Positions 13,504-62,309 of a DNA stretch of 64,000 bases are shown here, one piece after another. Each line of letters starts with the position of its first letter. Positions within the stretch are counted from its first letter, which is position 1. The notes below the pieces were generated by a model. That model was given only the letters and a program-made list of their open reading frames with translations, did not search any database and was not told where the DNA came from. The stretch covers positions 62,001 through 126,000 of the forward strand of contig JAKLKO010000012.1 of NCBI GenBank assembly GCA_023150615.1, given 5' to 3'. A program made the position numbers and the translations under genes. The DNA comes from Phycisphaerae bacterium. GTDB lineage: Bacteria; Planctomycetota; Phycisphaerae; UBA1845; UTPLA1.

Positions 13504-15111
13504 ATGCTTCGAATCCTGGTCGCGGATAAGCTCGCTGAGGAAGGACTGGAACGGCTGCGCCGCGTCGACAACGTGACCTTCGATGTGCGGATCGGACTGC
13601 CGCCGAACGAGCTGGCGGCGTGCATCGGCAAGTACGACGGGCTGATCGTGCGTTCGGGCGTCAAGGTCACGGCCGACGTGTTGGCGCAGCCGGGACGCCT
13701 TCAGGCCATCGCCCGCGCGGGCGTCGGCGTCGACAACGTCGACCTGGCCGCAGCGACGCGGGCTGGCGTGCTCGTAATGAACACGCCCGACGCGAACACA
13801 ATTTCCACCGCTGAGCACACGATCGCGATGATCCTGGCGCTGGCTCGTCACATCCCGGCCGCGTGCGCCGAGCTGAAGTCGGGCCAGTGGAACCGCGCCA
13901 AGTTCGAAGGGTCGCAGCTTGCCGGGAAAACGCTCGGACTCGTCGGCCTGGGGCGCGTCGGGCGCGCCGTCGCCGCGCGGGCGCTGGCGCTGGAAATGAG
14001 CGTCATTGCGTACGATCCGTTCGTGCAGGCCGACCCTTCGCTCGAGGGCCGCGTCCGTATCGCGAAGTCGCTTGACGTGCTGCTCGACGCGGCGGACTAC
14101 CTTAGCGTACATGCCGTGCTGACCGACGCCACGCGCGGGATGATCGGCGCGGCCGAGTTCGCGCGGATGAAACCGGGCGTTCGGATCATCAATTGCGCCC
14201 GCGGCGGGATCATCGACGAAGCAGCGCTCGTTGAGGCGATCCGCGCGGGGCGCGTGGCGGGCGCGGCGCTCGATGTCTTCGCCTCCGAACCGCCGCCGGA
14301 GGATTCGGCGCTGCTGGCCCTGCCGCAGGTCGTCTGCACGCCGCACCTGGGCGCGTCGACGATCGAGGCGCAGGCCGCCGTGGCCGTGGAGGCGGTCGAC
14401 GCGCTGCTCGACTTCCTGCTTCGGGAGCAGATCCGCGGCGCGTGCAACGTGGTCGGACTGCCGCGTTGGTTGTCGCCGCCGGATCGGGCCTACATCGATC
14501 TCGCGTCGCGTATGGGCGCCCTGCTCGCGTCCCTGTGCGATCAGGGAATCCGCGAGGTGACGCTGACCACCCACGGATCGTCGCTCGCGGTGCTGGCGCC
14601 CGCGCTGGCGCGATTCGCCTCGGCCGCGCTGCTCGCACCCTACTGCAACGAGCGGCTGAACGTAATCAACGTCGAGGAGTTCGCACGCTCGCGCGGCATT
14701 GTCCTCCGACATGTCGGCGAACCGAACGCGCCCGGCCCGACTGACCGCGTCTCGCTGGCGGTTGAGGGCGGCGAGCAACACACGATCCACGGAACCGTCT
14801 TCGCCGACCTGCTGCCACGAATCCTCTCGATCGACGACTATCCGATGAACCTCGTGCCCGCCGGCACGATGCTGCTGATCTTCAACGACGACCGGCCGGG
14901 GGTCATCGGCTTCGTCGGGACGACGCTGGGCAATCTCGGCGTCAACATCGCCGACATGGCGCTGTCGCGGCACGCCGATCGCGCGCTGATGGTCCTGCGC
15001 CTCGATGCGCCGCCACCCCGCGAGGCCGTGCAGGCCCTGCAATCCGGGCCCTCGATCCTGAGCCTGCGCTTCGCCGCGCTGCCGCCGAACGTCTCCGGCG
15101 CCGAGCCATAG
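13504..15111 (+). CDS. serA: D-3-phosphoglycerate dehydrogenase
   Basis: A 535-residue long-form SerA catalysing the NAD-dependent oxidation of 3-phosphoglycerate, the first step of serine synthesis. The NAD-binding GLGRVGRAVAARA motif is near residue 148. The catalytic Arg (NCARGG), Glu and His (TPHLGAST) stretch follows. From about residue 320 there is an allosteric-substrate-binding domain and a C-terminal ACT domain (IFNDDRPGVIGFVGTTLG), the usual site of serine feedback. AAGGAG lies 9 bases before ATG 13504. It is divergent from radA. Confidence 0.96.
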   Translation: MLRILVADKLAEEGLERLRRVDNVTFDVRIGLPPNELAACIGKYDGLIVRSGVKVTADVLAQPGRLQAIARAGVGVDNVDLAAATRAGVLVMNTPDANTISTAEHTIAMILALARHIPAACAELKSGQWNRAKFEGSQLAGKTLGLVGLGRVGRAVAARALALEMSVIAYDPFVQADPSLEGRVRIAKSLDVLLDAADYLSVHAVLTDATRGMIGAAEFARMKPGVRIINCARGGIIDEAALVEAIRAGRVAGAALDVFASEPPPEDSALLALPQVVCTPHLGASTIEAQAAVAVEAVDALLDFLLREQIRGACNVVGLPRWLSPPDRAYIDLASRMGALLASLCDQGIREVTLTTHGSSLAVLAPALARFASAALLAPYCNERLNVINVEEFARSRGIVLRHVGEPNAPGPTDRVSLAVEGGEQHTIHGTVFADLLPRILSIDDYPMNLVPAGTMLLIFNDDRPGVIGFVGTTLGNLGVNIADMALSRHADRALMVLRLDAPPPREAVQALQSGPSILSLRFAALPPNVSGAEP

Positions 15112-37056: not shown

Positions 37057-37421
37057 CGCGAAACCCTCAGTGCGTTCGAAACAGCCCTGTGCTCGATCGC
37101 GCCAAGCTCGGCCCCAGGAGCCATTCTCACGGGTGGGAGGCCGTCGCCGGTCATTTGACGGCGACGCCCGGTATGATTCCAACCGTCGTATTGTACGGGA
37201 TTTACGTCCGCCGTCAAGTCTACTTCGACCACGCCGCGACGCGGCTTGAGTCGCGTCCCGACCGGCCACTCCCGCCGAACCGCGCGGCCCGTCGTCGTTG
37301 ACGTGCCCCCCGGCGGTTAATCCTTCGCCGCAGAACTACTTGCGCCCGGCTCCGCCGCGACGCGCGGCTTCGGCCCCCTCGGGCGATCCATCGCCGCGGC
37401 GATTACCATGCCGAACCGTCC
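37057..37421. other. Divergent intergenic region
   Basis: This 365-base gap lies between the HEAT gene (minus) and glcD (plus). It holds the minus-strand promoter described separately. No clear promoter for glcD and no gene is seen. Confidence 0.5.
37190..37217 (-). promoter_or_regulatory. Sigma-70-like promoter for the HEAT/receiver gene
   Basis: On the minus strand TTGACG (37212-37217) and TACAAT (37190-37195) are 16 bases apart, the best promoter match in the window. It gives a leader of about 125 bases before ATG 37056. Confidence 0.6.
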
Positions 37422-38855
37422 GTGCGCCAGATCAACCCGCAATATCTCGATGAACTTCGCCGCGTCGTCGGACCGCAGCACGTCGCCGTCGATCCCGGCG
37501 AACGCCACACCTTCGAAAGCGACGCGTTCACGCTCGTCCGCGGCCGGCCGGACGCCGTCGTCTTCCCGGCGAGCACGGAGGAAGTCGCGGGCGTTGCGCG
37601 CATCACCGCGAAGCACGGCCTGCCGATCATCCCGCGCGGCGCGGGCACGAGCCTGGCCGGCGGCACCATTGCGATCGACGGCGGCGTCTGCGTCAGCCTG
37701 ACGCGGATGCGGCAAATCCTCGATATCAACCTCCGCGATCGCTGCGCGCGGGTGCAGGCCGGCGTCGTGAACCTCCACGTCTCGCAGGCCGTCACCGCGC
37801 AGGGCTGGCACTACGCGCCGGATCCTTCCAGCCAGATGGTGTCCACCGTCGGCGGCAACTTCGCCACGAACGCCGGCGGGCCGCACACCCTTCGCTACGG
37901 CGTCACGGCGCAGCACGTCCTCGGCGCAACGATCGTGCTGGCGGACGGCTCGATCGTCGCGCTTGGCGGGACCTATGACGATGCGCCCGGCGGCGACGTG
38001 CTTTCGCTGCTCGTCGGCAGCGAAGGCACGCTCGGCATCGCGACTGAAATCACCGTCCGGCTGACGCGCACGCCCGCCGCGATCCGCACGCAGCTCGCCA
38101 TCTTCGATTCCATTGACGATGCATCGCACGCGATCAGCGGGATCATCGCCGCGGGAATCGTCCCCGCCGCGCTCGAGATGATGGACCAGGCCACGCTCAC
38201 CGCAGTCGAACAATGGCTCCGGCTCCGATTCCCGCTCGACGCCGGCGCGGTCCTCATCATCGAAATCGACGGGCTCGAACCGGGCCTCGATCGACAGACC
38301 GATCGCATCGCCGGGCTGTGTCGTCGCCACGGCGCCCGCGACGTCCGACTCGCGCGAGACGACGCGGAGCGCGCGCAACTCTGGATGGCCCGCAAGAAGT
38401 CGTTCGGCGCGCTCGGTCGTTACGGGCTGAGCTACTGCACGCAGGACGGCGTCGTGCCGCCGAGCCGCATCCCCGAGCTCATGCGTTTCATCGCCGACGT
38501 GGGAGCGCGGCACCGACTGCGGGTCGCGACCGTCATGCACGCCGGCGATGGCAACATCCATCCCGTCCTCATGTACGACGAGAACGACCCGGCGCAGGTC
38601 CGCGCCGTCGTGGCCGCGGGGTACGAGATCCTCGACCGGTGCGTCGCGCTCGGCGGCAGTGTGACCGGCGAGCACGGAATCGGCATCGAGAAGGTCCGTC
38701 ACCTCGAGCGGATGTACGACCCGGATACGCTCGCGATGTTCGAGCGCGTCCGCCGCGCGTTCGATCCGGACCGGCGCCTCAATCCGCGCAAGGTCCTCGC
38801 CGGAGGCGCGCCGTGCGTCGAGCTGCTGCGGCCACCGAAGGGCATCCCGGCATGA
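37422..38855 (+). CDS. glcD: Glycolate oxidase subunit GlcD (FAD-binding)
   Basis: 477 residues, the usual GlcD length. The PCMH FAD-binding domain has PRGAGTSLAGG, the VGGNFATNAGG stretch and GTYDDAPGGDVLSLLVGSEGTLGIATEITV; the C-terminal domain has MHAGDGNIHP and SVTGEHGIGIEK, which hold the catalytic histidines. GlcD oxidises glycolate (or D-lactate) to the keto acid, passing electrons via GlcF. The start is GTG 37422, since the nearby ATG is out of frame. The stop overlaps glcE as ATGA. Confidence 0.93.
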   Translation: MRQINPQYLDELRRVVGPQHVAVDPGERHTFESDAFTLVRGRPDAVVFPASTEEVAGVARITAKHGLPIIPRGAGTSLAGGTIAIDGGVCVSLTRMRQILDINLRDRCARVQAGVVNLHVSQAVTAQGWHYAPDPSSQMVSTVGGNFATNAGGPHTLRYGVTAQHVLGATIVLADGSIVALGGTYDDAPGGDVLSLLVGSEGTLGIATEITVRLTRTPAAIRTQLAIFDSIDDASHAISGIIAAGIVPAALEMMDQATLTAVEQWLRLRFPLDAGAVLIIEIDGLEPGLDRQTDRIAGLCRRHGARDVRLARDDAERAQLWMARKKSFGALGRYGLSYCTQDGVVPPSRIPELMRFIADVGARHRLRVATVMHAGDGNIHPVLMYDENDPAQVRAVVAAGYEILDRCVALGGSVTGEHGIGIEKVRHLERMYDPDTLAMFERVRRAFDPDRRLNPRKVLAGGAPCVELLRPPKGIPA

Positions 38856-39931
38856 TCGAACCTCGCACGATCGATGAACTGCGGAAGGCGATTAGATCCG
38901 CCGCAGCCGACACCGCCGATCGCTCTGGCGGCGCGCCGCTCGTCATCGGCGCCGGAACGAAGTGTCGCTCGTCAGACGCGCGGCGCGCCGCGATCACGAC
39001 GCGTTCACTGACCGACATCGTCGAATACTCGCCCCCCGACCTGACGATTACCGTCCAGGCCGGCATGACCCTCGACGCGTTGCAGGCACGGCTCGCGGCG
39101 GATCACCTTCGATGGCCCGTCGATGCGCCCGGCTACGACGGACGTGCGACGGTCGGCGGCGTGTTGGCGATGAATGACTCCGGTCCGCTGCGACTCCGGA
39201 ACGGCTCACCGCGCGACAACGTCATCGGGATGTCGATCCTCCTTGCCGACGGACAGATCGTCCGCACCGGCGGCCGCGTAATGAAGAACGTCGCCGGGTA
39301 TGCGCTGCATCGCCTGCTCGTCGGCAGCCGCGGTCGGCTTGGCGTCATCGCGACGGCCTCGCTCCGGCTGCGACCGCTCGACGAGACGTTGCGACTCGCA
39401 ATCCTCCCGGCGGGCGATGCGACAATGGCCGAGCGCTGGACCGCCGCATTGATCAGCGGCCCGGTCCGCCCCGCGATGCTCGATTGGCTCCGCCCCGCGG
39501 ACGAACTGGGCGAGCGCGGCCTCGCGCTCGTCGTCGGCTTCGAGGACTGCGTCGAGGCCGTGGAGGCACAACTCGCGTTCGTTGGCACGCACGTTCCGGG
39601 CGCGCGAATCTTGAGGGACGACGAGTCCCGAGCGGTGTACCAACGCCTCCGCGAGTGGGGAACGACTCCGGATATCCGGCTCGCACTTCCCGGCTCGAAG
39701 CTCGCCGAGTTCTTCGATGCCGCGGAGCCGCTCGCCCGGCCGATGCTCGCGCACGCCGGCGGCGCGACAGTCCTCGTGCGCGACGCGACATCGGACCACG
39801 CCGGCCGCCTCGCCACGATCTCGCGCAGACTCGGCGGGGCGATCATCTGGCCGCCCGAGCCGGAGACCCCGGCCATCGCCACACTGCGCGATCGCCTCTC
39901 CCGCGCATTCGCCGGAGGCGATGTCGCATGA
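38852..39931 (+). CDS. glcE: Glycolate oxidase subunit GlcE
   Basis: 359 residues with a PCMH FAD-binding half (PLVIGAGTKCR, ATVGGVLAMNDSGPLRLRNGSPRDNVIGM, KNVAGYALHRLLVGSRGRLGVI) and a shorter C-terminal half than GlcD. Together with GlcD and GlcF it forms the membrane-linked glycolate dehydrogenase complex. ATG 38852 overlaps the glcD stop by ATGA, and the same overlap links it to glcF. Confidence 0.9.
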   Translation: MIEPRTIDELRKAIRSAAADTADRSGGAPLVIGAGTKCRSSDARRAAITTRSLTDIVEYSPPDLTITVQAGMTLDALQARLAADHLRWPVDAPGYDGRATVGGVLAMNDSGPLRLRNGSPRDNVIGMSILLADGQIVRTGGRVMKNVAGYALHRLLVGSRGRLGVIATASLRLRPLDETLRLAILPAGDATMAERWTAALISGPVRPAMLDWLRPADELGERGLALVVGFEDCVEAVEAQLAFVGTHVPGARILRDDESRAVYQRLREWGTTPDIRLALPGSKLAEFFDAAEPLARPMLAHAGGATVLVRDATSDHAGRLATISRRLGGAIIWPPEPETPAIATLRDRLSRAFAGGDVA

Positions 39932-41229
39932 CCGCGGTGCATGACCTCGACGCGCGCCTCCGTACGTGCATCCACTGCGGGCTGTGCCTCGAACACTGTC
40001 CGACGTACGTCGATCTGTGCACCGAGATGGACTCGCCGCGCGGACGCATCGTCCTGATGCGCGGATTACACGAGCGCCGCATCGAGCCGACGCCGGCCGT
40101 CGCGCAGCATCTCAACCGCTGCCTCGGATGCCGCGGTTGCGAAACGGCCTGTCCGTCCGGTGTCCGTTACGGCGAACTGCTCGAGCACTTCCGCTCCCAA
40201 TCCGGCCTGCCGGCCGAATCAACCGTCATGCCGCGGTTGATGGCCTTCGCGAACTTCTACCTCTTCCCGTACCGCCGGCGGATGCGCGCCGCGGTCGCGA
40301 TGGCCCGCGCCGTGCGCTGGCTCGGCGCATCGCACCTCGTCCGCGCGACGCCGCTCGCGCGATGGATCCCGGATTGGATGCTGCGACTCGATGCGATGCT
40401 CCCAACGACGATCGACGCCGCCGAGCCGCTGCGCCGCGAGTACCGCGCCGGTCCGCGCGATGCGCAACGCGCCCGGCTGTTCATCGGGTGCGTCGCCGAG
40501 GTCCTCCGACCGCGGACCCACCGCGCGACGATCCGCGTCCTCAATCGACACGGCTGCGACGTCGAATGCCCGCCCGCGCAGGGCTGCTGCGGCGCACTCC
40601 ACCTTCACGCCGGCCGACGCGGGGAGGCCTGCGCGCTGGCCCGCGCCAACATCGACGCGCTGCACGGCGACGCGCCCGTCATCACCAACGTCGCCGGCTG
40701 CGGCGCGATGCTTAAGCAGTACGGCGACCTCCTGGCCGACGATCCCGCCTACGCCGCCCCGGCCGCCGAGTTTGCGCGGCGTGTCCGCGACGTGTCGGAA
40801 TTCGTCGCGACGCTCGAGCCCGTGCCGCCGACGCGCGCCATGCCGATTCGCGCCGTCTACCACGACCCCTGCCACCTCGGCCACGCGCAGTCGGTCCGCA
40901 GCGCCCCCCGCGAACTGCTCCGCCGGATCCCCGGCCTGCAACTCGTCGAGCTGAACGATGGCGAGCTCTGCTGCGGCGCGGCCGGCATCTATAACCTGAC
41001 GCATCCGGACATCGCCGATCGCCTGGCCGAGGCGAAGCTCCGGCGAATCCGCGACACCCGCGCCGAACTCGTCATCACCGGCAACATCGGCTGCATGTTG
41101 CACCTCGGCGCCCGTGCCCGCCGGGACAACGCGCCGATCCGGATCGTCCACACGATGGAATTGCTCGACGAGGCGTGCGACCCGCGAACCGCGCCGCCGC
41201 CGTACAATCCGGATTCCGAGGCCCCATGA
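39928..41229 (+). CDS. glcF: Glycolate oxidase iron-sulfur subunit GlcF
   Basis: 433 residues. The N-terminus has two four-cysteine 4Fe-4S motifs, CIHCGLCLEHCP and CLGCRGCETACP. The C-terminal half has two CCG domains (CCGALHLHAG and CCGAAGIYNL), which in related proteins hold an additional cluster. It carries electrons from the flavin subunits to the quinone pool. ATG 39928 overlaps glcE, and its own stop overlaps the next gene as ATGA, so the operon is tightly coupled. Confidence 0.93.
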   Translation: MTAVHDLDARLRTCIHCGLCLEHCPTYVDLCTEMDSPRGRIVLMRGLHERRIEPTPAVAQHLNRCLGCRGCETACPSGVRYGELLEHFRSQSGLPAESTVMPRLMAFANFYLFPYRRRMRAAVAMARAVRWLGASHLVRATPLARWIPDWMLRLDAMLPTTIDAAEPLRREYRAGPRDAQRARLFIGCVAEVLRPRTHRATIRVLNRHGCDVECPPAQGCCGALHLHAGRRGEACALARANIDALHGDAPVITNVAGCGAMLKQYGDLLADDPAYAAPAAEFARRVRDVSEFVATLEPVPPTRAMPIRAVYHDPCHLGHAQSVRSAPRELLRRIPGLQLVELNDGELCCGAAGIYNLTHPDIADRLAEAKLRRIRDTRAELVITGNIGCMLHLGARARRDNAPIRIVHTMELLDEACDPRTAPPPYNPDSEAP

Positions 41230-42422
41230 CGCCCAAACATGCCCTCATCATCGCCGCCGGCGCCGCGGACGACCCGCTCGACGCCCTCGACGGCCGGACT
41301 CCGATCGAGGCCGCCGTCACGCCGACCCTCGACGAGATCGCGACAATCGGCCGGCAAGGCACCGTGCGATCGATCCCCGGCGGCTTCATTCCTGCCCGCG
41401 ACGTGGCGACGCTGACCTTGCTCGGCTGCGACGTGCGCGCGCACTATTGCGGCTTCGCGGGACTCGAAGTCGCCGCGCGCCGCCTCACGCTCGCCGAGGA
41501 CGAAGTCGCCTTCCGCTGCAACCTCGCCACCGTTCGCGAAGGTCTGCTCGTCGACCACGCCGCCGGTCACATCGGCCAGCCGGAGGCCGAGCGCCTCTTC
41601 AGCGACCTCGATCGCCACTTCGCGCCCGCCGGGCTGCGCTTCTATCCCGGACTGTCCTACCGCGGCCTCATGGTGACGCGGCACCCGTGGGCGACCGGCG
41701 TCACCTGCTCGCCGGCGCACGACGTCCTCGGCATGCGCGCCGACCGGCACCTGCCGAGCGGCCGCGGTTCGCGCGAGCTTCGGCAGATCATGGCGCGGGC
41801 CGCCGAACTCCTCGCCGATCATGAGGTCAACCGCGTCCGCGAAGATCTCAACGAAAACCCCGCAAACACGATTTGGCCGTGGGGCCAGGGCGTCCTGCCG
41901 CGCGTGCGCCGATTCCGCGAGCGCTTCGGCCTGCGCGGAGCGCTGGTCGGCGCAGCGCCGCTCATTCGCGGGATCGCCGTGCTCTACGGCTGGCCCGTCG
42001 TTCCCGTCCCGGGCGCGACGGGCGCGGCGAAAACGGACTTCGAAGCCAAGGGCCGCGCGGCCGTCGATGCGCTCGAATCCCATGACCTGGTCGTCGTGCA
42101 CGTCGAAGCGCCGGACGACGCCTCGCTGTCCGGCGACCTCGGGGCCAAGCTCCGTGCGATCGAGCAGATCGACCGGCACATCGTCGCGCCCTTGTTTCAG
42201 CGACTGCGGCGACGGGAGCGCTGGAGTTTGCTGTTTGTGCCTGACGTCGCCACGCACCTGCTGCGCCGCGCGCACACGGCTGAGCCGGTTCCGTTCGCCA
42301 TCGCCGGATCGGCGCCGCTCCGCGCCTCGGACGCGGCGCCCTTCGGCGAATCCGCGGCCCGACGCAGCGACCTGCACGTCGAACACGGGCACGATCTGCT
42401 GGAGTATTTCCTGCGGACATGA
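41226..42422 (+). CDS. Phosphoglycerate-mutase-like (ApgM family) protein, catalytic residues lost
   Basis: 398 residues with the overall archaeal-type 2,3-bisphosphoglycerate-independent mutase pattern (GRTPIEAAVTPTLDEIA, FRCNLATV, AGHIGQPEAERLF, VPGATG, HVEAPDDAS, AHTAEPVPFAIA). Several active-site positions differ from family members: the metal Asp of the opening DG is Ala11, the nucleophile Ser of GSDVA is Arg58 (ARDVA), the His of DEASH is Leu301, and the His of PDHPTP is Val341. It is therefore probably not a working mutase. ATG 41226 overlaps the glcF stop by ATGA. A non-catalytic or altered role linked to glycolate or glycerate metabolism is inferred. Confidence 0.82.
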   Translation: MTPKHALIIAAGAADDPLDALDGRTPIEAAVTPTLDEIATIGRQGTVRSIPGGFIPARDVATLTLLGCDVRAHYCGFAGLEVAARRLTLAEDEVAFRCNLATVREGLLVDHAAGHIGQPEAERLFSDLDRHFAPAGLRFYPGLSYRGLMVTRHPWATGVTCSPAHDVLGMRADRHLPSGRGSRELRQIMARAAELLADHEVNRVREDLNENPANTIWPWGQGVLPRVRRFRERFGLRGALVGAAPLIRGIAVLYGWPVVPVPGATGAAKTDFEAKGRAAVDALESHDLVVVHVEAPDDASLSGDLGAKLRAIEQIDRHIVAPLFQRLRRRERWSLLFVPDVATHLLRRAHTAEPVPFAIAGSAPLRASDAAPFGESAARRSDLHVEHGHDLLEYFLRT

Positions 42423-42470
42423 CCCGGCCCGGCCCGTACCATGTGCCGCGGACCTGCACCGGAGCAGCGC

Positions 42471-43919
42471 GTGATTCGCACCAAGATCATCGCCACCGTC
42501 GGACCCGCCTCAGCCGATCCCGCCGTCCTGCGGCGTCTGATCGACGCGGGCGTCGACGTCTTCCGGCTCAACTTCTCCCACGGGTCGCGAGACGCGCACG
42601 CCCGCGCCGTGCGTCTCATCCACGAGGCCGGCGTCGACTGCGGTCGACACATCGCGATCATGGGCGACCTCTGCGGGCCGAAAATCCGTCTGAACGCCGT
42701 GGCCGGCGGACGCGCGCGATTGAACGATGGCGCGGTCGTTCGGATCGTCCGCGGAAACGCCGACGCCACGGCCGACTGCCTGACCTCTAACTACGACGCC
42801 CTGATTGACGAGATGCTGCCCGGCCAGCGCCTGCTCATCGACGACGGAAGCGTCCGACTTCGCGTCGTCGAGAAAAACGACGCCGCGCTCGTCTGTGCCG
42901 TTGACGTCGGCGGCCACATCGCCGATCGCAAGGGCATTAACCTGCCCGACACGCAGATCCGCCGGCCGGCCCTGACCGATAAGGACCGCGATGACCTGGC
43001 CTGGGCCATCGAGCAGCGACTCGACTACGTCGCGCTGTCATTCGTGCGCCGCGGCGAGGACGTCGCCGAGGTCCGACGCATCATCGCCGCAGCCGGCGGC
43101 GACGTGCACGTCGTCGCCAAGATCGAAAAACCGCAGGCCATCGACTCGCTCGACGCCATCATCGAGGAATCCGACGTCGTGCTGGTCGCCCGCGGAGACC
43201 TCGGCGTCGAGATGGAAGTCGAACGCGTCCCGATCCTCCAGAAGACCATCGCTCGGCAATGCCGCTACGGCGCCAAGCCCATCATCGTCGCGACCCAGAT
43301 GCTTCAGAGCATGGTCCACTCGCCCGTGCCGACCCGCGCCGAGGTCAGCGACGTCGCCAACGCCATCCTCGATCACGCCGACGTCCTGATGCTCTCGGCC
43401 GAGACAGCCGTCGGGGAGTATCCGGTGGAGGCGGTCCGTATCCTGCGGCGCGTCGCCGAACAGACCGAGCGCCACCTCGAGCGCATCGCGCCCCACCTCG
43501 AAAAAGACGTCCTCGCCGCGGCGCTGCGGCTCAGTTCCGCCGTCGCGCGCGGCGCCAGCCTCGTCGCCCGCGACCTCGACGCGCAACTCGTCGCCGTCTG
43601 GTCCGACACCGGCAGCACGGTCCGGCTGCTGAGCAAGCACCGGATGGGCCAGACGATCGTCGGACTCTGTCCGACCGAGCACGTCGCGCGGCGGATGGCG
43701 ATGTACTTCGGCGTCGTCCCGCTGCTCCTGAATCGACCCGAGGCGACCGACGAGATGTTCCGCCGACTCGACGCGGAGTTGATCGCTCGGCGTCTGGCCG
43801 AACCCGGAGACCTGACCGTCGTTGTCGCCGGGACGAAGCTGAACCGACCCGGCAGCACCAACATGCTGCTGATCCACCTCGTCGGCGAATCGGACTCCGC
43901 CGCGTCGCAAACCCCGTGA
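42471..43919 (+). CDS. pyk: Pyruvate kinase
   Basis: 482 residues. It has RLNFSHG, MGDLCGPKIRL, the VARGDLGVEM metal-binding loop, ATQMLQSM and PTRAEVSDVANAI, then the allosteric C-terminal domain ending in TVVVAGTKLNRPGSTNMLLIHLV. It transfers phosphate from phosphoenolpyruvate to ADP. GTG 42471 is chosen because GGAG lies 6 bases upstream and the sequence VIRTKIIATVGPAS fits family N-termini; ATG 42441 has no ribosome site. It follows the mutase-like gene by 48 bases and is probably part of the same transcript. Confidence 0.95.
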   Translation: MIRTKIIATVGPASADPAVLRRLIDAGVDVFRLNFSHGSRDAHARAVRLIHEAGVDCGRHIAIMGDLCGPKIRLNAVAGGRARLNDGAVVRIVRGNADATADCLTSNYDALIDEMLPGQRLLIDDGSVRLRVVEKNDAALVCAVDVGGHIADRKGINLPDTQIRRPALTDKDRDDLAWAIEQRLDYVALSFVRRGEDVAEVRRIIAAAGGDVHVVAKIEKPQAIDSLDAIIEESDVVLVARGDLGVEMEVERVPILQKTIARQCRYGAKPIIVATQMLQSMVHSPVPTRAEVSDVANAILDHADVLMLSAETAVGEYPVEAVRILRRVAEQTERHLERIAPHLEKDVLAAALRLSSAVARGASLVARDLDAQLVAVWSDTGSTVRLLSKHRMGQTIVGLCPTEHVARRMAMYFGVVPLLLNRPEATDEMFRRLDAELIARRLAEPGDLTVVVAGTKLNRPGSTNMLLIHLVGESDSAASQTP

Positions 43920-44133
43920 TTCACCCGCGAAGCGCTTCGGTGTGACCCGGTGCTGAGACGCGCGCCTATAACTGGTTGACATCAAAACACTTGCGCGCTG
44001 ACACCGGCTCGGTGTGGCGCGCCCGACTCTGACCAGTACCGCGCGTTCGGGCCGCGTTCGAAATCCGCGGCCCCGCAATGCGTTATGCTATTAGCGCAGC
44101 GAGCCGAGTCTGCGATCTACGAGGTGCGGACGA

Positions 44134-44724
44134 GTGAAATCACAGATCAACCGACGCCGGGGGTTCACCCTCATCGAAATCCTCGTCGTCATCTCCATCA
44201 TCACGATCCTGCTCGGGATCCTGCTTCCGTCGCTCAGTGCGGCGCGCGTCCGGGCCACGCAGACCGCATGCGCCAACAGTCTCCGGCAGACCGGCCTGGC
44301 GATCCGCTCTTATCTCGACTCGAGCAATGACGTCTTTCCGTACGCCTCGTTCATGCCTTCGGTCGACCCCTTCCCCCTGACCGATCAGGCGATCTACATC
44401 GCGGAAGTGCTCCTGCCGCACGCGGCCGGCGATCCCTCCGTGTTCGAGTGTCCCGCCGACCGCGGCGACATCGCGCGGCCGGCACCGAACGAGGGAAAAA
44501 GTTACTTCGCCTCCGAAAAGTCCAGTTACGAGTATCGCTTCCGCCTCGGCGGCGAAACGCTGGAGGAAGTCCTCAAGCGATTCCAGTCGTTCACCGGCGT
44601 GCGCATGGCGGAAAACACGTTCTGGCTGATGCGCGACTACGACAACTTCCACGGCATCGGCGGCAGACCCGGCGCACGGCGATACGTCTACAATGACGGC
44701 CACGTCAGCGACTTTGAAAACTAG
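44134..44724 (+). CDS. Prepilin-type protein
   Basis: 196 residues starting at GTG 44134 (GAGGTG upstream). The N-terminus RRRGFTLIEILVVISIITILLGILLPSL is a class III prepilin signal with cleavage before Phe and the hydrophobic helix that forms the pilin core. The globular domain has two Cys residues and ends with NDGHVSDF, a DGH motif like that of planctomycete prepilin-processing-associated proteins. It may be a type II secretion or type IV pilus pseudopilin. No assembly genes are nearby. Confidence 0.85.
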   Translation: MKSQINRRRGFTLIEILVVISIITILLGILLPSLSAARVRATQTACANSLRQTGLAIRSYLDSSNDVFPYASFMPSVDPFPLTDQAIYIAEVLLPHAAGDPSVFECPADRGDIARPAPNEGKSYFASEKSSYEYRFRLGGETLEEVLKRFQSFTGVRMAENTFWLMRDYDNFHGIGGRPGARRYVYNDGHVSDFEN

Positions 44725-60662: not shown

Positions 60663-62309
60663 ATGCTCTCCGCCACCGCATTGCTCATCCCGCCGTTCTT
60701 GACGCTGCTGGCCTCCGGTCTTGCCCACTTCCCGCAGGGCGTCGCCAGCGGCGACGTCACGGCCGAATCGGCCATCGTCTGGACGCGCGCCGACGCGATC
60801 GGCGACTACCGCCTCGAACTCTCGCGCGATTCCGGATTCGGCACGCTCGACCAGAGCGTCATGCTCACCGCGACCGATGACAGTGACCGGACGCTCCAGC
60901 ATGACCTGACCGGCCTCGATTCAGCCACTCGCTACTTCTTCCGCTTTATCGATTTGGGCGACATGCAATCATCGCCGATCGGCACGTTCCAGACGGCGCC
61001 GACGCCGGACGATCTCCGCGCGTTCCGCTTCGTCTATTCCGGCGACTCGAATGCCGCGCACCGCCCGTTCCGATTGCTGGACTTCGCACGAGAGGAAGCG
61101 CCGGACTTCTGGGTCTGGGCCGGCGACACGATCTACAGCGACGGCGTCGCGGACGGACTCCCGGTCGCGACCGATCTGGCCGGCTACCGCGCCAAGCATC
61201 GACAGAACCGCGACGACCCCTTCTTGCAGGACCTGCTCGCCGCCGCGCCGGTGATCGCGCAATGGGACGACCACGAGGTTGCGAACGACTACGACGGCGG
61301 CGAACTGGAACCGACGATCACCGAATCGCGCCGCGAAGCCGCCTACCGCGCGTTCTTCGAGTACATGCCCGTCCGCGCACAAGGCATCCCCGCTGATCCG
61401 CACCGGCTCTACCGGTCGTTTCGCCACGGTGCGCTGGCCGAGTTCTTCGTCCTCGACTGCCGGCAGTACCGCTCGGCCGATCTCGGCCGGTCCGGCGGCG
61501 GACTCGACCCGTACGGCTACTTCCTGCCGACTCTCGACCTCGCGTCGATCTGCCGCATGCGCGATCCGGGCCGTACGATGCTCGGCCGAGAGCAGCTTGA
61601 GTGGCTGCGCGACGGGCTGCGAAAATCCGAGGCGACCTGGAAGTTCGTCCTCAGCTCCGTGCCGTTCACGTCGCTGCTCGTCTATCCGTTCGATCGCTGG
61701 GACGGCTACGACGCCGAGCGCTACGAACTCTTCCGCTTCATCGCCGAACAAAGGGTCACCGGCGTCGTGCTGCTCTCCGCCGACATCCACGGCAACGCGC
61801 ACAACCCGGACGTGACGCACTACCTTCGAACGTCGCTGCTTGAGCCGCTGCCCCCGTGCCCGCCGATCCGCGAATTCGTCGCCGGACCGATCGCCACCGA
61901 GACGACCGTGCAGGAAATCACCGCCGTCGCCGGAATGCTGCTGGGACTGAGTCCGGACGAGGCCGCCGGCGCGCTGCCGATCGCGCTCGGCCTGAACCTG
62001 CTCACGTCGCAAGTCGCGCTGCGCAACGGACTGCGCTTCCTCGACGCGAACCACTACGCCTACCTGGTCGTCGACGTGTCGCCGAACGCGATCGAGCTGT
62101 CCTACCGCGGCATCGAACCCGATCCGACGATTGCCGCGCCGACGCTCCGCACGCTCTACTCCACGCGCATCGATTCCCATCTGTGCGGCGTCGGACTGGC
62201 ACTGCTACCGCTCGCCGGAACGACGGCCATCGCATCCATGAGGCGGATGTTCCGCCAGCCCCCGCGGCGCCAGCGCCACCAGAGCGTTACGCCGATCAGG
62301 ATCACATAG
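60663..62309 (+). CDS. PhoD-like alkaline phosphatase/phosphodiesterase
   Basis: 548 residues from ATG 60663. A signal-like N-terminus leads into an Fn3-like domain (FPQGVASGDVTAESAIVWTRAD, about 30-115), then the PhoD metallophosphatase core: FVYSGDSN, WVWAGDTIYSDG, AQWDDHEVANDYDG, LDCRQYRS, and VLLSADIHGNAH. PhoD enzymes are exported and bind Fe and Ca. The C-terminal 45 residues (from about LCGVGLALLPLAG) overlap the MATE gene on the other strand by 154 bases. Confidence 0.88.
   Translation: MLSATALLIPPFLTLLASGLAHFPQGVASGDVTAESAIVWTRADAIGDYRLELSRDSGFGTLDQSVMLTATDDSDRTLQHDLTGLDSATRYFFRFIDLGDMQSSPIGTFQTAPTPDDLRAFRFVYSGDSNAAHRPFRLLDFAREEAPDFWVWAGDTIYSDGVADGLPVATDLAGYRAKHRQNRDDPFLQDLLAAAPVIAQWDDHEVANDYDGGELEPTITESRREAAYRAFFEYMPVRAQGIPADPHRLYRSFRHGALAEFFVLDCRQYRSADLGRSGGGLDPYGYFLPTLDLASICRMRDPGRTMLGREQLEWLRDGLRKSEATWKFVLSSVPFTSLLVYPFDRWDGYDAERYELFRFIAEQRVTGVVLLSADIHGNAHNPDVTHYLRTSLLEPLPPCPPIREFVAGPIATETTVQEITAVAGMLLGLSPDEAAGALPIALGLNLLTSQVALRNGLRFLDANHYAYLVVDVSPNAIELSYRGIEPDPTIAAPTLRTLYSTRIDSHLCGVGLALLPLAGTTAIASMRRMFRQPPRRQRHQSVTPIRIT

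Follow-up and report, generated by a model that had tools for sequence, protein, structure and literature searches.

Proteins of the family TIGR02535 (PRK04200) were named ThrB2 through comparative genomics (PMC9026213). Mutants in the Bacteroides thetaiotaomicron member, BT2402, require threonine, and an E. coli thrB mutant is not rescued by BT2402 (PMC7311316). A homoserine-kinase function is proposed for the family, its intact members included, and the genomes considered here offer a natural test of TIGR02535 as the missing homoserine kinase. The same fold is found in the archaeal ApgM proteins (TIGR00306), represented by the structures 2zkt of P. horikoshii and 3idd and 3kd8 of T. acidophilum.

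The gene described here lies in a window of 64,000 nucleotides (positions 62,001 to 126,000 of contig JAKLKO010000012.1, assembly GCA_023150615.1) from a Phycisphaerae bacterium, referred to below as G000, the genome of which has an estimated completeness of 99.6%. An initial annotation had presented its product as a phosphoglycerate-mutase-like protein without catalytic residues, encoded in the glycolate oxidase operon.

Gene Neighbourhood and Family Assignment

The gene stands in a tightly packed run, glcD-glcE-glcF-pseudo-ThrB2-pyk (Table 1), in which its ATG overlaps the stop of glcF as ATGA and pyk follows downstream, both as originally described, and a promoter scan of positions 37200-44200 returned nothing above chance. 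Two starts are candidates for pyk, of which the GTG at 42471 yields the usual pyruvate kinase N-terminus. Elsewhere in the window, the sole tRNA called is a tRNA-Ala(CGC) at 13943-14036, which at 94 bases is long for an alanine tRNA.

Table 1. Coordinates of the genes and replaced codons in the window, and of three related loci in other genomes.
Feature	Position	Strand	Basis
glcD (FAD-oxidase), opens the tightly packed run	37422..38855	+	domain match
glcE (FAD_binding_4), ATGA overlap with glcD	38852..39931	+	start taken from ORF list
glcF (Fer4 and two CCG domains), ATGA overlap at either side	39928..41229	+	domain match
Degenerate TIGR02535/ApgM-fold protein (pseudo-ThrB2), 398 aa	41226..42422	+	profile matches, structure matches, alignment
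Codon 11: Ala replacing metal Asp (Asp in 75/75 intact relatives)	41256..41258	+	alignment
Codon 58: Arg replacing Ser/Thr nucleophile (S/T in 75/75 intact)	41397..41399	+	alignment
Codon 301: Leu replacing metal His (His in 75/75 intact)	42126..42128	+	alignment
Codon 341: Val replacing metal His (75/75 intact); preceding Asp340 kept	42246..42248	+	alignment
pyk	42441..43919	+	domain match; GTG start at ~42471 possible too
PglD_N-pseudo-ThrB2-VgrG locus (G073)	L132:3189-8856		
PglD_N-pseudo-ThrB2-VgrG locus (G070)	L127:2066-6959		
PglD_N-pseudo-ThrB2-VgrG locus (G038)	L060:9988-15395		

The ApgM-type fold first proposed for the protein is borne out by its domains (PF10143 and PF01676), by a full-length match of 380.1 bits to TIGR00306, above the cut-off of 320 for that subfamily, and by matches to the three archaeal structures, the best of them by sequence and by model being 2zkt and 3idd. 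Foldseek with the AlphaFold model (five sequences; pLDDT 66, pTM 0.71; low confidence near the active site, at 14-60 and 341-357) confirmed this fold and gave nothing further. The reading as a member of the phosphoglycerate mutase family, on the other hand, needs correction: going by the profile matches, the best curated match of the protein is TIGR02535 (409.1 bits, full length), the proposed alternative homoserine kinase, and not the glycolytic ApgM, the catalytic metal site of which it has lost, and the mutase role in G000 belongs to a GpmI on contig C22 (588.6 bits; cut-off 330.65).

The window protein, which is the sole PF10143 protein in its genome, is about 43-51% identical over its full length to most of 75 intact ThrB2 proteins and has the same domain architecture, and its closest intact relatives adjoin hom or pyk. 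It differs from TIGR02535 in remaining under the family cut-off of 446.3 bits, in lacking the nucleophile and three metal ligands, and in having no hom or thr neighbours in G000. ThrB2 is followed by pyk in 8 of the 13 intact members from the same family (G013, G002, G001, G005, G007, G011, G012 and G015), which indicates that the pyk adjacency is ancestral in the family and that the window gene occupies the ancestral place. Identity, pyk synteny and the trees described below all show that the protein shares descent with intact ThrB2.

Loss of the Catalytic Residues

Of the 90 homologs aligned from the same order, 75 are intact and present D-S/T-D-H-D-H-H at the seven catalytic positions, where the window protein presents A-R-D-L-D-V-H, so that Asp297, Asp340 and His350 are retained. 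The four losses reported by the initial annotation are real, given that this alignment and the one with the PDB sequences agree on the placing of D11A, S58R, H301L and H341V, and alignment error or chance is excluded as their cause. The losses fall on the active site, with 4 of the 7 catalytic positions changed versus 18 of 99 other near-invariant positions (Fisher p=0.03), in keeping with the earlier reading of a protein that is non-catalytic by its sequence while the rest of the fold is conserved.

With the metal sites assigned as in iPGM, the residues lost are the nucleophile, every further ligand of its metal but Asp340, and a single ligand at the other metal. Since Asp11, residue 58 (the nucleophile) and His341 of the second metal site are gone, along with His301 of the first, the phosphoenzyme chemistry of the superfamily should be impossible, and we strongly infer that the window protein is catalytically dead. 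Among the intact ThrB2, the nucleophile is Thr and not Ser in 26 of 75, many of them from genomes without detectable hom, and this difference may mark a functional split.

A Second Genus with the Same Losses

A homolog that is 55% identical to the window protein was found in another genus of the same family (G010; L053:9409-10605), and it carries the same Ala11, Arg58 and Leu301, together with Leu341, Tyr297 and Gln350. It has thus lost two further ligands, and 6 of its 7 catalytic positions are changed versus 21 of 99 other near-invariant positions (Fisher p=0.001). The two proteins form a sister pair in trees with a support of 99-100, from which we infer that the loss of the active site occurred once, in the common ancestor of G000 and G010, convergent loss being unlikely. 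A class-wide search added two more near homologs, both with intact sites. The motif WPWGQG (Pro218) was considered as a shared derived mark of the pair and was ruled out, as it is also present in the intact L073.

The two degenerate carriers have no gene neighbourhood in common. The G010 gene lies between genes for a methyltransferase and an HtrA-type protease, with no pyk nearby, in a genome that has the canonical hom-thrB-thrC, and the adjacency to glcDEF is seen only in the genome of the window. The look into related genomes that had been suggested at the outset therefore recovers the same substitutions (Ala11, Arg58 and Leu301 in G010) and fails to recover the glc linkage. Given this, the proposed role in glycolate or three-carbon metabolism is rejected as the main reading, since it rests on a co-location private to G000, with different neighbours in G010 and a pyk that is simply inherited.

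Neither frame is interrupted by a stop or a frameshift, and gaps are restricted to the N-terminus and two single residues, which rules out a fresh pseudogene. Since their split, the two branches have changed by some 0.5 and 0.9 substitutions per site, and when 0.5 substitutions per site were simulated under neutrality the frame was still open in 0.3% of the runs. The two genes differ by 0.37, 0.26 and 0.47 at codon positions 1, 2 and 3, and the proteins are 74% identical at family-invariant positions versus 48% elsewhere. An open frame and the better preservation of the family-invariant positions point to continued selection on the protein, weaker than that on the intact members, of which 0-6 near-invariant positions are lost, compared with 21 in the window protein and 26 in that of G010. 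As the window protein changes faster than the intact members, relaxed selection forms a part of the explanation. The suggestion that selection has acted against decay gains from the fact that the second genus keeps the degenerate protein open and full length, and the mark of a pseudoenzyme, catalytic residues lost and the ORF nevertheless conserved across lineages, is found in G000 and G010.

The Threonine Pathway in G000 and across the Order

No canonical thrB and no Homoserine_dh domain were found in searches of the G000 genome, and NAD_binding_3 (PF03447) gives a weak match of 28.6 bits, compared with 69-85 in hom-bearing genomes. The type II homoserine kinase TIGR00938 (thrB_alt), considered as a replacement in G000, was ruled out by a best match of 38.6 bits against a cut-off of 255.9. 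The 480-aa type of threonine synthase that accompanies intact ThrB2 in the family is absent from among the matches listed for G000, where another threonine-synthase-like protein stands above the thrC cut-off. A stand-in for ThrB would be expected in a genome with hom and thrC and no ThrB; G000 has no thrB, but it has no hom either. With GpmI present and both thrB and hom absent, neither a mutase nor a threonine role relies on the window protein.

Across the order, 114 genomes were counted, of which three with fragments only were set aside. Among the 111 judged, 76 carry an intact ThrB2 without a canonical thrB, 11 carry canonical thrB (two of these matches being slightly below the model cut-off, yet near thrC or hom) without an intact ThrB2, and the remaining 24 lack both. 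Canonical thrB therefore occurs in 0 of 76 genomes with intact ThrB2 versus 11 of 35 others (Fisher 9e-7, for genomes that are not phylogenetically independent), and in 20 genomes the gene directly upstream of an intact ThrB2 is hom. These data fit a threonine role for ThrB2, a link that is not universal, since 35 of the 76 intact-ThrB2 genomes (G016, G031, G032, G049, G050 and G053 among them) have no detectable hom; in such genomes either another hom is present or ThrB2 has a different job. The genomes in which a ThrB2 has decayed catalytically either have thrB (3 of the 11, namely G010, G038 and G062) or have neither hom nor thrB, and in two cases, G070 and G099, the decayed protein occurs beside an intact copy.

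Proposed Origin and Retention of the Degenerate Protein

With a probability of roughly 0.6, we read the window protein, from its sequence and those of its relatives, as a ThrB2-derived pseudoenzyme that was made in place and retained afterwards in a non-catalytic role. An intact ThrB2 gene directly upstream of pyk would have decayed catalytically where it stood. In G000, this loss would accompany that of the threonine branch, comprising hom, the kinase and the type of synthase that accompanies intact ThrB2, while in G010 it would accompany the canonical hom-thrB-thrC cluster. The protein would since have been retained as a non-catalytic binder, scaffold or regulator, and it is probably a binding or regulatory role for which it was kept, a conclusion weaker than that of dead catalysis. 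A salt bridge between Arg58 and Asp340, residues kept in both genera, could be a structural replacement for the lost metal.

The gene may instead be a functionless relic under relaxed selection, which survived the loss of the threonine pathway because it precedes pyk in an operon with coupled translation. The accelerated change of the protein, the tight spacing to pyk, the absence of hom and thrB from G000, and the relative G003, which likewise has neither gene and has lost this one entirely, would all be expected of such a relic. We nevertheless consider it rather unlikely, given that the same degenerate protein is also full length in G010, where no pyk is nearby, that the many substitutions since the shared loss have brought no stop or frameshift, and that the invariant core positions are preferentially retained. 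It is improbable, too, that the proteins descend from one old non-catalytic ThrB2 paralog lineage extending across families f1 and f4, and not from decay in place. An outgroup-rooted tree does group seven of eight degenerate sequences outside the intact clade, four of them remain together in a reduced tree (support 90), and G070 has an intact copy alongside the degenerate one, but long branches and a far outgroup pull such rows together. A tree constrained to place the G000/G010 pair with intact f1 members has a likelihood above that of the free search (p-AU 0.69), and the pyk neighbour matches that of the intact f1 gene.

An active enzyme with altered chemistry, in line with the initial annotation's suggestion of an ApgM relative with another chemistry, is disfavoured, and very improbable in the form of a residual site (Asp297, His350, Asp340, His165 and Asp166) working with one metal or none. 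Although two of the three ligands at the first site are still present in G000, as are several residues of the pocket, this site is gone in G010 (Tyr297, Leu301 and Gln350), so that a function common to both cannot require it, and further family-invariant residues are changed, namely Arg77 in both genomes and Asp245 and Asp269 in G000. A sequencing, assembly or binning artefact might be suspected in an assembly of 70 contigs, but it is effectively refuted by the intact frame and codon structure, by the 134-kb length of the contig, and by the same replacements in the independent genome of another genus. With the pseudoenzyme favoured here, annotation pipelines would give the name of a phosphoglycerate mutase or a kinase to a protein that is dead.

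Other Degenerate ThrB2 Proteins in the Order

The case points to a set of retained pseudoenzymes. The 90-sequence alignment contains further degenerate members from G038, G062, G065 and G073, and in G070 and G099 the degenerate protein is a second copy. In G073, G070 and G038, the order of a PglD_N/hexapeptide gene, the degenerate ThrB2 and a VgrG-type spike protein is conserved (Table 1). These f4 proteins are likewise full length with catalytic residues lost, whereas their conserved neighbourhood differs from that of the window gene, and their origin is probably separate. It is conceivable, although we put it forward tentatively and short of even odds, that ThrB2-type proteins in this one planctomycete order have repeatedly lost the catalytic site and been kept as non-catalytic proteins with new roles, in the G000/G010 form and in the VgrG-cluster form of a second family.

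A PG_binding_1 protein follows the VgrG-type gene in G073 and G038, with a PAAR protein further downstream in G038, and a PglD-like gene is also found near the degenerate copy of G065 (L134). In G099 (L133:1373-4233), which has its intact copy elsewhere, a Mur ligase gene directly follows the degenerate ThrB2, and in G062 (L135:2992-6212) a strongly degenerate ThrB2 follows genes for an ABC transporter ATPase and an FtsX/MacB permease on the same strand.
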